In this document: positions 34,366 through 43,250 of the stretch, piece by piece | How positions within the stretch are numbered: position 1 is the first letter of the stretch | How the letters are laid out: every line of letters begins with the position of its first letter | NCBI GenBank assembly: GCA_027308685.1 | Contig: DAIDEE010000016.1 | Location: forward strand, 62,001-126,000 | DNA: 64,000 bases | Direction of reading: 5' to 3' | Source of the DNA: Acidocella sp. | Lineage (GTDB): Bacteria > Pseudomonadota > Alphaproteobacteria > Acetobacterales > Acetobacteraceae | The notes under the pieces: generated by a model | Told to the model about the DNA's origin: nothing | The model's database searches: none | Seen by the model: the letters and a program-made list of their open reading frames with translations, nothing else | Position numbers and translations under genes: made by a program

Positions 34366-34391
34366 AAAGGGGGCGTTGAGCCCCCATTTTT
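34366..34391. terminator. Bidirectional rho-independent terminator after eno
   Basis: GGGGGC-GTTGA-GCCCCC forms a 6-bp stem flanked by an A-run on the left and ATTTTT on the right. It serves eno on the plus strand and the convergent V4R-like gene, whose stop codon overlaps the T-run at 34390-34392. Confidence 0.9.
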
Positions 34392-35730
34392 ATACCGACA
34401 ACAGGTTACGCTCGACCACCACTTCAGAATACGCATCGCCCATCGCGACACACGCCGTCTGGCGGCCCCAGAACCCGGCTTTGGAACGGTTGACCTTGTA
34501 ATAAAAATCCAGCGTGAGGTCCGGCTTTGTGGTGATATCGGCACTGTAAAGCAAATTCATCAATGAGCCGCCGATGCCGGTGAGCAGGTAATCAATCGGA
34601 TGATCGGCTTCACCAAACAGCCGCAGATGGCCGAGAGATTCATAAGGGTGCCAGGCGCGCAGCACCAACCGCTCGTTGGGAATGATCTCATGGATACGCC
34701 ACACGCCCCACCCCAATGCGTTGATGCAGGCGACCACCCCCGATATCCAATCTTCCTTGGTTCGCAATTGCGGCACAATCAACTGGTACCAGGGGTCTGA
34801 ACGCATAATCCCGCCCATGGTATTGAAGCCGCAGATATGGCCGGCCTCGATCAGCAACGTGCTGGCCAGTTCCATGCCTTTCAGGTGACTAAATTTGTCC
34901 TTGTAATAAAACAGCGCCGGATATTCGAACCATAAAACGTCACTGAGATATTTATGCGTCTTTAGGGCTTCGGCCAGTGCGCGCTCATAGCGGAATGAAA
35001 CGAAATTGTAATAATCTGCGTAATGGCGGGTCAGAAACACGCCAAACGCAGGGATCATACCGTTTTCATCACCGGTCAAAGGCAACGTGCCAACCGCCGC
35101 GATGATCGCCGTTTCATCGATATGCAGGCCAACCGTGCGGACCGGCACCTGATCGGCGCGGGGCGGCAAGGATACCGGCACGATCGGCGGCGTATCTAGC
35201 GGAAAGCGGTCACCGGTTGCAGGGGCAATATGAAAACGGCTTTTGTCCGCACCTAAGGAAATCGACTGCGCCTGATCGATCTGCCCGGTTACCGCAATGC
35301 CATCCACAGCGGCGAGCACGCCGACGGCAAATCCTAAATCGAAATAATCACCGGCCCAGCGACGCTTGCCGTAATTCAAGCGCAGGGCGCAACCATAATG
35401 AGAGAACGCTTCCTCGATGAACACGCCCTCGGGGGGCAAAGGCGGAATACCGGCAATCGGCAAATCGCCAAAACCACAAAATCGGTAAAACTCCTCCGCA
35501 TAGGCAAGGCGTGCTGCACGGTTCATGCCCGGGTTGGCGTCGAAATGCGCCCGCATCTGTCGAAAGCTGACCTCTGCTGCGGCGTTGATGAGGATCGGTT
35601 CTCGTTTGATGTAGTGGCAATCCTCCACCACCAACTGCAGTACTCTGTTATAATGATTACAATGAAAGATCACCGGTTCATTATCAATCGTCACGATGCC
35701 GGTGGCATTGTCCCGCTGCGGTACGATCAT
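34390..35730 (-). CDS. Uncharacterised protein with two V4R-like domains
   Basis: A 446-residue soluble protein of no characterised family. The C-terminal part (about 290-446) resembles a V4R small-molecule-binding domain: GMELASTLLIEAGHICGF, INALGWGVWRIHEIIP, a glycine-rich LLTGIGGSLMNLL, and ACVAMGDAYSEVVVER, which fits the C-x-x-x-G-D-x-x-C-E-F-V end but with Ser for the second Cys. The N-terminal part (about 20-170) repeats the pattern (RFCGFGDLPI, SHYGCALRLNYG, DLGFAVGVLAAVDG). V4R domains sense hydrocarbons in XylR/DmpR-type regulators; no output domain is present here. It is divergent from the Roadblock-SCP2-PhnD-like genes. No function is assigned. Confidence 0.6.
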   Translation of the reverse strand: MIVPQRDNATGIVTIDNEPVIFHCNHYNRVLQLVVEDCHYIKREPILINAAAEVSFRQMRAHFDANPGMNRAARLAYAEEFYRFCGFGDLPIAGIPPLPPEGVFIEEAFSHYGCALRLNYGKRRWAGDYFDLGFAVGVLAAVDGIAVTGQIDQAQSISLGADKSRFHIAPATGDRFPLDTPPIVPVSLPPRADQVPVRTVGLHIDETAIIAAVGTLPLTGDENGMIPAFGVFLTRHYADYYNFVSFRYERALAEALKTHKYLSDVLWFEYPALFYYKDKFSHLKGMELASTLLIEAGHICGFNTMGGIMRSDPWYQLIVPQLRTKEDWISGVVACINALGWGVWRIHEIIPNERLVLRAWHPYESLGHLRLFGEADHPIDYLLTGIGGSLMNLLYSADITTKPDLTLDFYYKVNRSKAGFWGRQTACVAMGDAYSEVVVERNLLSV

Positions 35731-36006
35731 GGAAGCATCCTTTAAGCTTTTAATTCCGTAACAATATCATTAACCTTAAGGTCAAGCATGTCTAGGTGCG
35801 CTAGAAAAATCATACCGATGCAACAACGGATGATTTGAAAAATTATCTTAAATTAAACTCAAATTTTGTACAATTTTTATCAATTTTTGCGCGGTTGATT
35901 GCCTTGGATTCACACTTAAACAATTGTCTTAAGTAACGATAATTCTATTGCGCAAATGTAAAAACATTCTAATCCTAAATTGATAGCTCGCTTACGGGAG
36001 GCAGCC
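35731..36006. promoter_or_regulatory. AT-rich divergent promoter region with two palindromes
   Basis: A 276-bp region between the V4R-like gene and the Roadblock gene, clearly AT-richer than the flanking genes. TTGTACAA (35866-35873) is a perfect 8-bp palindrome. At 35914-35934, ACTTAA and TTAAGT flank ACAATTGT, itself a perfect palindrome, making a composite 21-bp inverted repeat offset by one base. These are good candidates for operators of a shared regulator. No gene was seen inside. Confidence 0.45.
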
Positions 36007-36372
36007 TTGCGTGAAAATGAAATAAAAACTGTGCTAACAGACCTTAACAACGGCTCCGTCAGCATCGAGGCTTCGGCGCTCATTTCGACTGACGGGTTGA
36101 TTCTGGCCTCGGCGTTACCGAGTGTAATGGATGAAGACCGTGTTGCGGCCATGGTGGCCGCCATGCTGTCATTGGGCGATCGTACCGCCGCCGAACTGGC
36201 CTGTGGACAGTTGGAACAGGTGCTTGTCAGCGGCTCGCATGGACATATCCTCATCGTTCATGCCGGCAGCGATGCGGTACTCTGCGTGATTGCCAACAAG
36301 GCCGTGAAACTAGGGTTGCTGTTCCTAAATGCAAAATATACCGCTCAGGCGGTGGCGACACTCCTGCACTGA
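36007..36372 (+). CDS. Roadblock/LC7 (MglB-like) domain protein
   Basis: A 121-residue single-domain protein. ASALISTDGLILASALP (about 16-32) matches the central Roadblock strand-turn-strand, followed by VAAMVAAMLSLGDRTAAEL (helix) and VLVSGSHGHILIVHAG (paired strands). Roadblock proteins regulate small Ras-like GTPases such as MglA or form scaffolds, but no GTPase gene is in the window. The TTG start at 36007 is chosen because GGGAGG lies 5 nt upstream; the frame is open to 35980. It is first of three genes in line. Confidence 0.75.
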   Translation: MRENEIKTVLTDLNNGSVSIEASALISTDGLILASALPSVMDEDRVAAMVAAMLSLGDRTAAELACGQLEQVLVSGSHGHILIVHAGSDAVLCVIANKAVKLGLLFLNAKYTAQAVATLLH

Positions 36373-36519
36373 GCCGACGTTATTTTTCCGGGTCACGTCA
36401 AAACCAGGATGTAGCGCGCGTTGCATGAGGACCCCAGATGCGCGATTTGAATGATCGAAATGAATTCATATTGAATTTTTTAATAAAAACTAAAAAACGA
36501 CGATCCAGGGGCTTAAAAA
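36373..36519. other. AT-rich gap between the Roadblock and SCP2 genes
   Basis: 147 bp with no gene that I can support. It contains the 10-bp palindrome ATGAATTCAT (36460-36469) and an A/T-rich stretch before the SCP2 gene, so a separate promoter for the next two genes is possible. No terminator is evident. Confidence 0.4.
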
Positions 36520-36912
36520 ATGACAGCGAAATTTATGAGTGCTGCGTGGATTGAACTGGTGGGCGCCCAATGGGATGCAAACCATGACATCCAAAAAGAT
36601 TTGAAGAACTTCAATGCCTCATGGGAATATTATATCGAGGACAGACCTGAAGTCACGCATGTCATGCTGGTCTGTCAAGCCGGCAAGGTTGTTTACGCCG
36701 GGCCATCGGACGGGCAGGCCCGTGACTTCATCATGTGGGCCAGCCTCGATAACTGGAAAAAAATTCTCTCCGGCGAGGTCAGCGGCAAGGCCGCCCTGAT
36801 GACCAGGCGGTTGAAGTTCAAGGGCTCGATGATGACGGCGATGAAATACATGGCGCCGTTCAACATGCATCTGCAAATTCTAGGCAAGATTCCTGTCGAT
36901 TTTAATATCTGA
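36520..36912 (+). CDS. Cytoplasmic SCP2-type sterol/lipid-binding protein
   Basis: A 130-residue protein with an SCP2-like fold and no signal peptide. Pattern: a strand pair VTHVMLVCQAGKVVYAG (45-61), then MWASLDNW (72-79), RRLKFKGSMMTAMKYMAPF (96-114) and a final amphipathic stretch. SCP2 domains bind lipids, fatty acyl or isoprenoid compounds in a hydrophobic tunnel. AGGGG lies 8 nt before the ATG. Twelve bp separate it from the PhnD-like gene. The secreted protein at 42720 shares the MWA-x-x-NW, RLxFxG and AMxxMxPF motifs, so they look like distant paralogues. Confidence 0.7.
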   Translation: MTAKFMSAAWIELVGAQWDANHDIQKDLKNFNASWEYYIEDRPEVTHVMLVCQAGKVVYAGPSDGQARDFIMWASLDNWKKILSGEVSGKAALMTRRLKFKGSMMTAMKYMAPFNMHLQILGKIPVDFNI

Positions 36913-36924
36913 GGAAGCGGTGCC

Positions 36925-37779
36925 ATGTCAGACTCTCGAACCGGTAACAGTGGCAAGTTAAACTTTACAGTTGATCCGAATTATTCCGGCAAAAATCTGC
37001 CTGGCTGGTTTTTAATAAACACCTATCTGCAACGCCAGCTTGGGGTGGCGATGCGGTTTGCGCCGCATGACAGCTTCGATAATTGCCGGGCTGCCGTACT
37101 CGCAAATGAATATGACCTGGTTTACGCCAACCCGTTTGACTGGGTGCAATATACCCAAAAGCTGGATTTCATTCCCATCGCCAAACCACGCGACCATTAC
37201 GATGAGGTGTATCTCTGCACTGCCGCCGCCAACGCCATCGAGACAGTGGCTGATTTGCCGGAACGCACCCGGATCGCCTCGGCGCACCCTGGCACGCTCA
37301 TCCATATGGTGGGGCTGTTCCTGCTCGATAAGGCTGAGATCGACCGGGCGCGGCTGGAGTTTGTCTTCACCGGCAGTTACCAGGGCGTATTGAAAGCGGT
37401 GCTGCAAAAGCAAGCCGATATCGGATTTTTGTTCGATGAAATCTACGCCGGCGCCAGCGGGCTGATCCGTGACCGGCTGCGCATCATCGACAAATCCGAT
37501 GACGCCTTCGCCTTTCACGCTTTTTGTATCGGCCCCCGCCTGTTGGCGTTGCAAGAGCGCCTCACTGAGGTGCTTTGCCGGATGGACGAGGAGCCGCGCG
37601 GGCAGATGTTATTACAGGATATCGGCTTTACCGGCTTCACCCCGGTCACTGAGGATGAAGTGGCGTGCCTGACGATGTTAGCGGATGAGTATGTCAGCGG
37701 CCATGAAGCAATCGACTTGCGCTCGACCTCGACGCTGGAAATTGCCGGCAGCGCCTTCATAGTGGCCCGCGACGCTTAA
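36925..37779 (+). CDS. PhnD-like substrate-binding-protein fold without signal peptide
   Basis: A 284-residue protein of the phosphate/phosphonate periplasmic-binding-protein family (PhnD-like, type II fold). Family features are DNCRAAVLANEYDLVYANPF (about 50-69), a hinge-like IASAHPGTLIHMVGLFLL (about 112-129) and FVFTGSYQGVLKAVLQKQADIGFLF. The N-terminus (MSDSRTGNSGKLNFTVD) is hydrophilic with no export signal or lipobox, so it appears cytoplasmic, unlike ABC-importer binding proteins. No transporter genes adjoin it. GAGGAAGCGG precedes the ATG. Likely a ligand-sensing protein (inference). Confidence 0.68.
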   Translation: MSDSRTGNSGKLNFTVDPNYSGKNLPGWFLINTYLQRQLGVAMRFAPHDSFDNCRAAVLANEYDLVYANPFDWVQYTQKLDFIPIAKPRDHYDEVYLCTAAANAIETVADLPERTRIASAHPGTLIHMVGLFLLDKAEIDRARLEFVFTGSYQGVLKAVLQKQADIGFLFDEIYAGASGLIRDRLRIIDKSDDAFAFHAFCIGPRLLALQERLTEVLCRMDEEPRGQMLLQDIGFTGFTPVTEDEVACLTMLADEYVSGHEAIDLRSTSTLEIAGSAFIVARDA

Positions 37780-42719: not shown

Positions 42720-43250
42720 ATGAAATTCAAGCAAGTATTTTTAACAGCGACTGCCGCGACGTTCTTTCTCAGTAATGTCGCCCTGGCCGACACGGGAGCG
42801 CCAGTGTTCATGTCGCCGGACTGGGCAAATAATTTATGCGACGCCTGGAACCACGCCACCGACCTTACCACCGGCCTCGCAGGTGGTTGGGTTCATAATG
42901 ATGGCGGCAAAGGCTACAAAACCTTAAAAGTGGCCGATTCAATTTGCACCAAGAGTGCGCCGGTTGAGCTGCAAATCTCCTTCAAGGACGGCAAGGCCAT
43001 TTGCATTTATGGTGGTGCCCTTAAGGCTGGCGATATGAATTACGGCGTCGATTACTCGATGTGGGCCACCACGAAAAACTGGCAGAACATGGGCTCACCG
43101 ATGACCGCGATGATGTTTGGTCGGCTAAATTTCCAGGGACCGAAGATAGAAGCGATGTCCAACATGGGACCTTTCGGTGCGTTCCTGCATCTGGTGGCGC
43201 AAGTGCCCGGCAGTGTTGATTATTGCCCGCCGGTTGGCCAAGGCACATGA
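42720..43250 (+). CDS. Exported SCP2-like protein
   Basis: A 176-residue protein with a signal peptide (1-23, FFLSNVALA then DTG). The mature region has strands VELQISFKDGKAICIYGG (82-99), MWATTKNW (114-121), GRLNFQGPKIEAMSNMGPF (134-152) and a closing hydrophobic stretch. These match the cytoplasmic SCP2 protein at 36520 block for block. Four cysteines (40, 76, 95, 169) could form disulfides in the periplasm. SCP2 domains are normally intracellular, so export is unusual. AGGGGA precedes the ATG. Function unknown; lipid or quinone binding in the periplasm is an inference. Confidence 0.6.
   Translation: MKFKQVFLTATAATFFLSNVALADTGAPVFMSPDWANNLCDAWNHATDLTTGLAGGWVHNDGGKGYKTLKVADSICTKSAPVELQISFKDGKAICIYGGALKAGDMNYGVDYSMWATTKNWQNMGSPMTAMMFGRLNFQGPKIEAMSNMGPFGAFLHLVAQVPGSVDYCPPVGQGT

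Follow-up and report, generated by a model that had tools for sequence, protein, structure and literature searches.

We analysed a 64,000-nucleotide stretch of the genome of Acidocella sp. (contig DAIDEE010000016.1, positions 62,001 to 126,000; hereafter the window) and focused on four genes within it, which encode a tandem V4R-like protein of 446 residues (V4R446), a Roadblock/LC7 protein, an SCP2-fold protein and a PhnD-like binding protein. The cluster lies between an enolase-like gene on the plus strand and a moaB-like gene (both names given by inspection), and all four open reading frames (ORFs) are present. The V4R446 gene occupies the minus strand and diverges from the other three, which follow each other on the plus strand in the order Roadblock, SCP2 and PhnD-like (Table 1). 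The Roadblock and SCP2 genes are 147 bp apart, and the SCP2 and PhnD-like genes are separated by 12 bp, as previously described. The genome that contains the window (G000) has 2.86 Mb and is estimated to be 99.8% complete.

Table 1 Features of the V4R446, Roadblock, SCP2 and PhnD-like locus, in window positions
Position	Strand	Feature	Basis
34369..34385		Likely bidirectional terminator between the enolase-like gene (+) and the 446-aa gene (-), with a G+C-rich stem and T tails on both sides; function putative	Consensus scan, 7 sites against 5.3 expected in shuffles
34390..35730	-	Predicted tandem V4R-like (XylR_N/V4R) sensor protein, 446 aa; domains ~1-190 and ~195-446	AlphaFold2 and Foldseek
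35731..36006		Divergent intergenic region, presumed promoters for both directions	DNA alignment, with conserved segments close to each start across three Acidocella genomes
36007..36372	+	MglB-type Roadblock/LC7 protein (121 aa, TTG start); proposed signalling hub	PF03259 3e-14, identities, tree
36520..36912	+	Putative binder of hydrophobic ligands with SCP2 fold, 130 aa	PF02036 1.2e-14
36925..37779	+	PhnD-like (PF12974) binding-protein fold, 284 aa, without signal-like N-terminus	Pfam 3.6e-45

The Pfam matches bear out the Roadblock/LC7, SCP2 and PhnD-like identities of the original prediction, the SCP2 match reaching 54.9 bits against a cut-off of 21.3 bits. The Roadblock had been given a length of 130 residues, which we correct to 121, because its start is most likely the TTG at position 36007, with a GGGAGG motif just upstream and homologues that align from there. 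The PhnD-like protein had been described as lacking an export signal, and its N-terminus is indeed neither hydrophobic nor signal-peptide-like by Kyte-Doolittle hydropathy, with a best 19-residue mean over the first 40 windows of 0.53 (0.61 for V4R446, 1.38 for the Roadblock and 0.43 for SCP2). By inspection, no transporter gene adjoins the cluster, again as predicted; neither an ABC permease nor an ATPase gene lies beside the PhnD-like gene, the neighbours being the enolase-like and moaB-like genes.

The closest comparison was with two operons that contain a GTPase (L027 and L028), whose Roadblocks are 59% and 62% identical to that of the window; the Roadblock of a third locus, without a GTPase (L029), is 55% identical. 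These three loci, in which PhnD-like genes lie beside the Roadblock gene, came to light when 398 genomes of the phylum were searched with PhnD. In a tree of 108 rows, from which identical rows and domains of ~95 aa or less were left out, the window protein grouped with Roadblocks of Acidithiobacillus operons; this placing is weakly supported (57/91). The alignment has few columns and the bootstrap is unsettled. In the relatives, the Roadblock is accompanied by a GTPase, another Roadblock and a protein of REC-like/winged-helix type, a set that corresponds, by description and not by accession, to the Group 3 MglA/MglB systems. According to the defining paper, the Group 3 operon consists of a protein that begins with a receiver-like part and ends in a winged helix, one MglA and one or two MglB, occurs almost only in beta- and gamma-Proteobacteria, and was suggested to regulate transcription (PMC4316618, Wuichet and Sogaard-Andersen 2014). 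Judged by sequence, the window Roadblock belongs to the subfamily found in these beta- and gamma-proteobacterial operons. A Roadblock matching its profile at E <= 1e-6 was present in 18 of 38 genomes of the genus.

We scanned named genomes with an alignment of the Roadblock and examined the surroundings of the best 80 loci of at least 592 stretches, a sample that is biased toward the nearest relatives of the query. Families were counted when they lay within 4.5 kb of the Roadblock. The Group 3 core was frequent (REC-like protein in 68 loci, second Roadblock in 66, GTPase in 62). Genes of putative sensor families also occurred, namely PhnD-like (43 loci), PAS (39), protoglobin (12), CZB (4), V4R446 (2) and SCP2 (1), and 56 of the 80 loci had a PhnD-like, PAS, protoglobin, CZB, V4R-type or SCP2 gene. 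For the first four of these families, nearly all matches lay on the strand of the Roadblock when every match was counted (PhnD-like 48/49, PAS 39/40, protoglobin 15/16, CZB 4/5). Pfam scans of selected loci confirmed protoglobin, and those of L063 and L040 confirmed CZB. Among the 11 loci without any of the three core proteins, 10 had a sensor gene. Upstream sequence is short (at most 1.1 kb) in three of these 11, and of the eight with at least 4 kb, seven had a sensor gene. The same association was seen in a check that was blind to the Roadblock and started from places found by PhnD search. Seven of the nine strong places (E <= 1e-30) had this Roadblock within ~1.5 kb, three of them being the Acidocella cluster, and the remaining two had a PAS gene. 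None of the eight weaker places had this Roadblock, and two had a PAS match.

Individual operons displayed the families of the window side by side. In Halothiobacillus (L110) the genes for the REC-like protein, the GTPase and the second Roadblock are succeeded in turn by those for a 157-aa protein, the Roadblock, PAS, PhnD-like and V4R446, and then by a response-regulator-like gene and a CHASE2 kinase; the V4R446 protein is 69% identical to that of the window. In G664, a Pfam V4R protein lies beside two PhnD-like genes, a PAS gene and the Roadblock. G1105 (L197) has a V4R446 relative convergent to this Roadblock (3.9e-53), with two small genes, CZB-like by eye, after the Roadblock. In three Thiotrichaceae loci (L040, L063, L064), a CZB-type gene lies directly 3' of the Roadblock and upstream of the REC-like and GTPase genes, and is another candidate input. 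The PhnD-like and V4R446 proteins have homologues inside Group 3 GTPase operons. The original prediction had asked whether the four-family neighbourhood recurs outside this genome: the exact set was seen in two other Acidocella genomes and not outside the genus, and its V4R446, Roadblock and PhnD-like subset recurs in Halothiobacillus.

A small 162-aa protein, present in 4 of the best 80 loci and preceding the Roadblock in L076, L079 and L110, looked V4R-like by eye, and was left unassigned, its L110 and L079 copies giving no Pfam match. When ORFs of at least 80 aa that had a blastp partner at some other locus were clustered, a conserved gene of ~250 aa preceded the REC-like gene in 63 of 84 loci. 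It looked FimV-like, and was left without a name, with nothing above the Pfam cut-off in the L057 and L086 relatives. The REC-like protein and the second Roadblock themselves gave no Pfam match.

Fusions also link Roadblocks to sensors. G000 encodes two further Roadblock domains at one other locus (L138, contig C18, 6326-8211), one adjoining a protoglobin gene and one fused to a protoglobin domain in a convergent gene. Roadblock and protoglobin occurred in one ORF in all three Acidocella loci scanned by Pfam (G000:C18, L141 and L144). In the G000:C18 fusion, a Roadblock and an oxygen-type sensor are thereby coupled directly. This Roadblock subfamily is, in short, repeatedly coupled to sensor domains, both by adjacency and by fusion.

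V4R446 itself gave no Pfam match above cut-off; the V4R profile did not reach the window protein, and matched the Halothiobacillus homologue below threshold (0.042, 14.4 bits, cut-off 31 bits). A first AlphaFold2 model from four close sequences was discarded (predicted local distance difference test, pLDDT, of 40.5), and a model from a 24-row alignment reached a pLDDT of 84.6 and a predicted template modelling score of 0.88. In Foldseek searches of this model, the phenol-sensor domains of MopR, PoxR and DmpR ranked first (E 5e-5 to 4e-3), with MopR as best match (E 5.4e-5, probability 1.00), followed by 4-vinyl-reductase, TRAPPC3 (E ~0.02) and H-NOX structures. TM-scores to the phenol-sensor domains were ~0.52 by target, these being isolated domains, and 0.25 by query, with a root-mean-square deviation of ~7. 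Strands and helices succeed one another similarly in the two halves, and at one locus (L172) the halves are two adjacent genes. Together with the fold matches, the model indicates that V4R446 consists of a tandem pair of aromatic-sensor (V4R) domains with a fold of the MopR/PoxR type, in support of the original prediction. It differs from MopR, PoxR and DmpR (XylR_N + V4R) in that the two domains fill the whole protein, without an AAA+ or DNA-binding part. A search of the PDB with the V4R446 profile gave no match, a single-sequence search found only the protein itself in 385 genomes of its class and 398 of its phylum, and plasmid sequences gave no match. Relatives recovered by a profile search were mostly ~400 aa long; in the class to which G695 belongs, 6 of 321 genomes had them, and in one order 28 of 42. 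At five loci (L167-L171), V4R446 relatives are preceded by a pair of small genes that look conserved (~99-114 aa and 134-181 aa), forming a separate three-gene neighbourhood.

Based on these findings, we propose that the cluster encodes a cytosolic sensory module, in which an orphan Roadblock adaptor of the MglB type receives the ligand state from the V4R, SCP2 and PhnD-like proteins, and we assign this explanation a probability of roughly 0.6. Each of the three proteins would bind a small molecule in the cytoplasm, ligand binding would alter the contact of the sensor with the Roadblock dimer, and the dimer would integrate these inputs and pass them to a target, with an output presumably independent of a Group 3 GTPase. 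Physical contact between the sensors and the Roadblock is predicted. The exact four-gene set is, so far as seen, confined to Acidocella, and is a variant of a wide, little-studied kind of signalling. Several observations weigh against this proposal. Among the best 80 loci, 24 lack such a sensor gene within 4.5 kb, although two of these have almost no downstream sequence. The V4R446 family mostly does without this Roadblock, being common in the order mentioned above; the 37 loci around V4R446 relatives, some of which overlap, comprised one with this Roadblock (L197), one with a distant Roadblock (4e-8, L168) and otherwise none within reach. Among the Roadblock loci examined, the SCP2 gene was present only in Acidocella, that is, in three genomes of one lineage. 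Co-transcription of the Roadblock and SCP2 genes is not assured because of the 147-bp gap, and V4R446 is divergent. Finally, no output protein was identified in Acidocella. A type IVa pilus, considered because of the orphan mglB-3 of Snodgrassella (see below), is unlikely as output, since the sole gene of G000 above the PF00437 cut-off looks TadA/CpaF-like, with CpaE- and TadB-like neighbours (names by inspection), and this search, made with PF00437 alone, showed no type IVa pilus ATPase.

The window genome differs from Group 3 systems in lacking the core by profile, with SCP2, V4R and PhnD-like genes adjoining the Roadblock instead. With profiles built within this analysis, none of six Acidocella genomes, G000 among them, yielded a Group 3 GTPase match at E <= 0.01, other GTPase families not being searched, and the controls G614 and G664 were positive. 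This extends to the whole genome the earlier observation that no GTPase adjoins the cluster. The REC-like and second-Roadblock (~211 aa) profiles found nothing in G000, and detected the controls G614, G664 and G695 at 4e-127 or better and 5e-93 or better, respectively; weak matches to these profiles in G031 and G010 (5e-4 and 7e-4) covered the receiver part only. We also observed natural GTPase-free versions of the operon: six loci (L029, L050, L065, L066, L072 and L075; those named belong to Neptuniibacter, Amphritea, Pontibacterium and Neptunomonas) keep the REC-like protein and both Roadblocks, with no GTPase seen at the locus, its genome-wide absence having been checked for G695 (L029) only.

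An unrecognised GTPase elsewhere in Acidocella might replace the Group 3 MglA, in which case the cluster would belong to an ordinary GTPase pathway with dispersed genes. This alternative gains from the main text of PMC4316618, where Roadblock proteins are predicted NTPase regulators, and from the account of Snodgrassella in PMC11112851, where mutating the orphan Group 3 mglB-3, which is ~1 Mb distant from its operon, changes pilus-linked motility. There, too, a Group 3-type Roadblock is found away from its GTPase; by the same account, however, Snodgrassella retains an mgl operon, whereas none was found in the window organism. The empty GTPase profile in the six genomes, within the scope given above, and the equally empty second-Roadblock and REC-like profiles in G000 speak against it, as does G695, which keeps the REC-like protein, both Roadblocks, PAS and PhnD while its GTPase is absent genome-wide by profile, indicating that the module survives when only the GTPase is lost. 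We therefore regard a substitute GTPase as unlikely and favour a sensory module without one.

The missing core genes might also be taken as signs that the cluster is what is left of a transferred Group 3 operon, decaying or carried along as a passenger without present function, and the G+C content of the cluster (52.4% against 56.8% in the rest of the window) would be compatible with this, although 10% of windows of the same size are equally low. The four genes are nevertheless real, intact and under purifying selection. They occur in the same order in G010 and in G031, a genome of the same genus (counted as one with L032), with 91-96% protein identity. The ratios of nonsynonymous to synonymous substitution rates (dN/dS) against these two genomes are 0.02-0.14, close to those of the neighbouring genes in the three genomes (enolase 0.02-0.04, moaB 0.04-0.07), and there are no internal stops. 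Because of these ratios, the uninterrupted frames and the shared gene order, the cluster is not in decay, and we consider a remnant very improbable compared with a working sensory module. The PhnD-like gene of the cluster was present in three of 61 genomes searched with PhnD, all three among the 37 Acidocella genomes.

The PhnD-like protein is 30-39% identical to those of the Roadblock loci L027-L029, and its profile matches AioX, ArrX and PtxB. AioX and ArrX signal to kinases. All belong to PF12974, together with PhnD and BstB, the latter a lipid-binding protein that binds sterols, as part of PMC10942540 describes. The window protein differs from these members of the family in having neither a signal-like N-terminus nor transporter genes alongside. 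In a tree of 58 rows, from which matches of ~200 aa or less and L030/L031 were left out, the Acidocella proteins sat on a long branch and were weakly placed. An additional PAS and PhnD-like pair lies elsewhere in G010 and G031, and those PhnD-like proteins group with that of L110 (100/99). On a Sphaerotilus plasmid, a PhnD-like protein (30.8% identical) follows a SpoIIE-type phosphatase gene.

The SCP2 protein had no match in a scan of viral contigs. On plasmids, 14 of its 18 matching records were from Rhodococcus, whose proteins are ~25-31% identical to it; most plasmid matches were at or below 31%, with one of 33% over half of the query. At three of the four Rhodococcus plasmid places examined (L011, L203 and L204) the SCP2 gene lies between dioxygenase genes and an annotated 4-vinyl reductase, in a separate SCP2-V4R-type neighbourhood. 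The Pseudarthrobacter place has a dioxygenase and no reductase listed, and the Pseudanabaena place has neither. The window contains a second SCP2-like gene at 42720-43250 (+), after an electron-transfer-flavoprotein-quinone-oxidoreductase-like gene. Its product is secreted-looking, with a signal-like N-terminus by eye, matches the SCP2 model of the cluster weakly (5e-8) and has relatives in G010 and G031; Pfam gave no match for the G010 copy.

These data bear on a third alternative, in which SCP2 and the PhnD-like protein carry a lipid or aromatic compound in the cytosol, V4R senses it and the Roadblock is incidental or structural. The sterol-binding BstB (PMC10942540, in the part cited above) and the dioxygenase and 4-vinyl reductase genes around three Rhodococcus SCP2 genes agree with such handling, although the identity to the Rhodococcus proteins is only ~25-31%. 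By inspection, however, no obvious pathway enzyme or transporter adjoins the cluster, and it is Roadblock and PAS genes that repeatedly accompany the PhnD-like gene. We find handling as the main function distinctly unlikely. The original prediction had left the choice between a cytoplasmic ligand-sensing and a lipid-handling module; the sensing half is favoured by the sensor genes at 56 of the 80 best loci and by the Roadblock-protoglobin fusions, and lipid handling is less supported. Within the sensory module, our best guess is that the V4R and SCP2 ligands may be aromatic or other hydrophobic molecules, because the MopR/PoxR fold binds phenols (as stated in part of PMC10933270), BstB binds sterols, and three of the four Rhodococcus SCP2 genes examined lie between dioxygenase and 4-vinyl reductase genes.

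We found little in the literature with which to compare the cluster. In open-licence publications, no paper joined roadblock, small GTPase, PhnD and operon, and roadblock together with protoglobin was not found. At the level of titles and abstracts, combinations of roadblock LC7 domain, PhnD, SCP2, V4R and Acidocella gave nothing on this cluster, and V4R domains appeared with roadblock only outside bacterial operons of this sort. PAS, PhnD-like, protoglobin and V4R neighbours are not mentioned for Group 3 systems in the part of PMC4316618 cited here. The earlier statement that no characterised system has this composition is consistent with this literature, although it missed the link to the parent Group 3 MglA/MglB systems described in 2014. 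The V4R/Bet3, Roadblock/longin and Ras-like GTPase folds of the TRAPP/Asgard TRAPPC3-Roadblock-GTPase set, as described in part of PMC10933270, also meet in the Halothiobacillus operon; this likeness is one of folds only, and the Group 3 GTPase profile had no match in the six Acidocella genomes searched.

To our knowledge, the inputs to bacterial Ras-like GTPase/Roadblock systems are largely unknown. The paper defining the Group 3 systems assigns them none in the part cited here (PMC4316618). Gene order and the Roadblock-protoglobin fusions now name concrete input candidates, each with a testable partner. More broadly, and tentatively, MglB-type Roadblocks might be general cytosolic sensor adaptors, a plug-in hub that swaps protoglobin (oxygen-type), PAS (redox-type), CZB (zinc-type), V4R, PhnD-like and SCP2 sensors by neighbourhood or fusion; some operons would unite V4R, Roadblock and Ras-like GTPase, the fold set of TRAPP, and the hub of Acidocella would have been freed from the GTPase to act on another target. 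If this GTPase-free version is true, Roadblock proteins would have a signalling role of their own.

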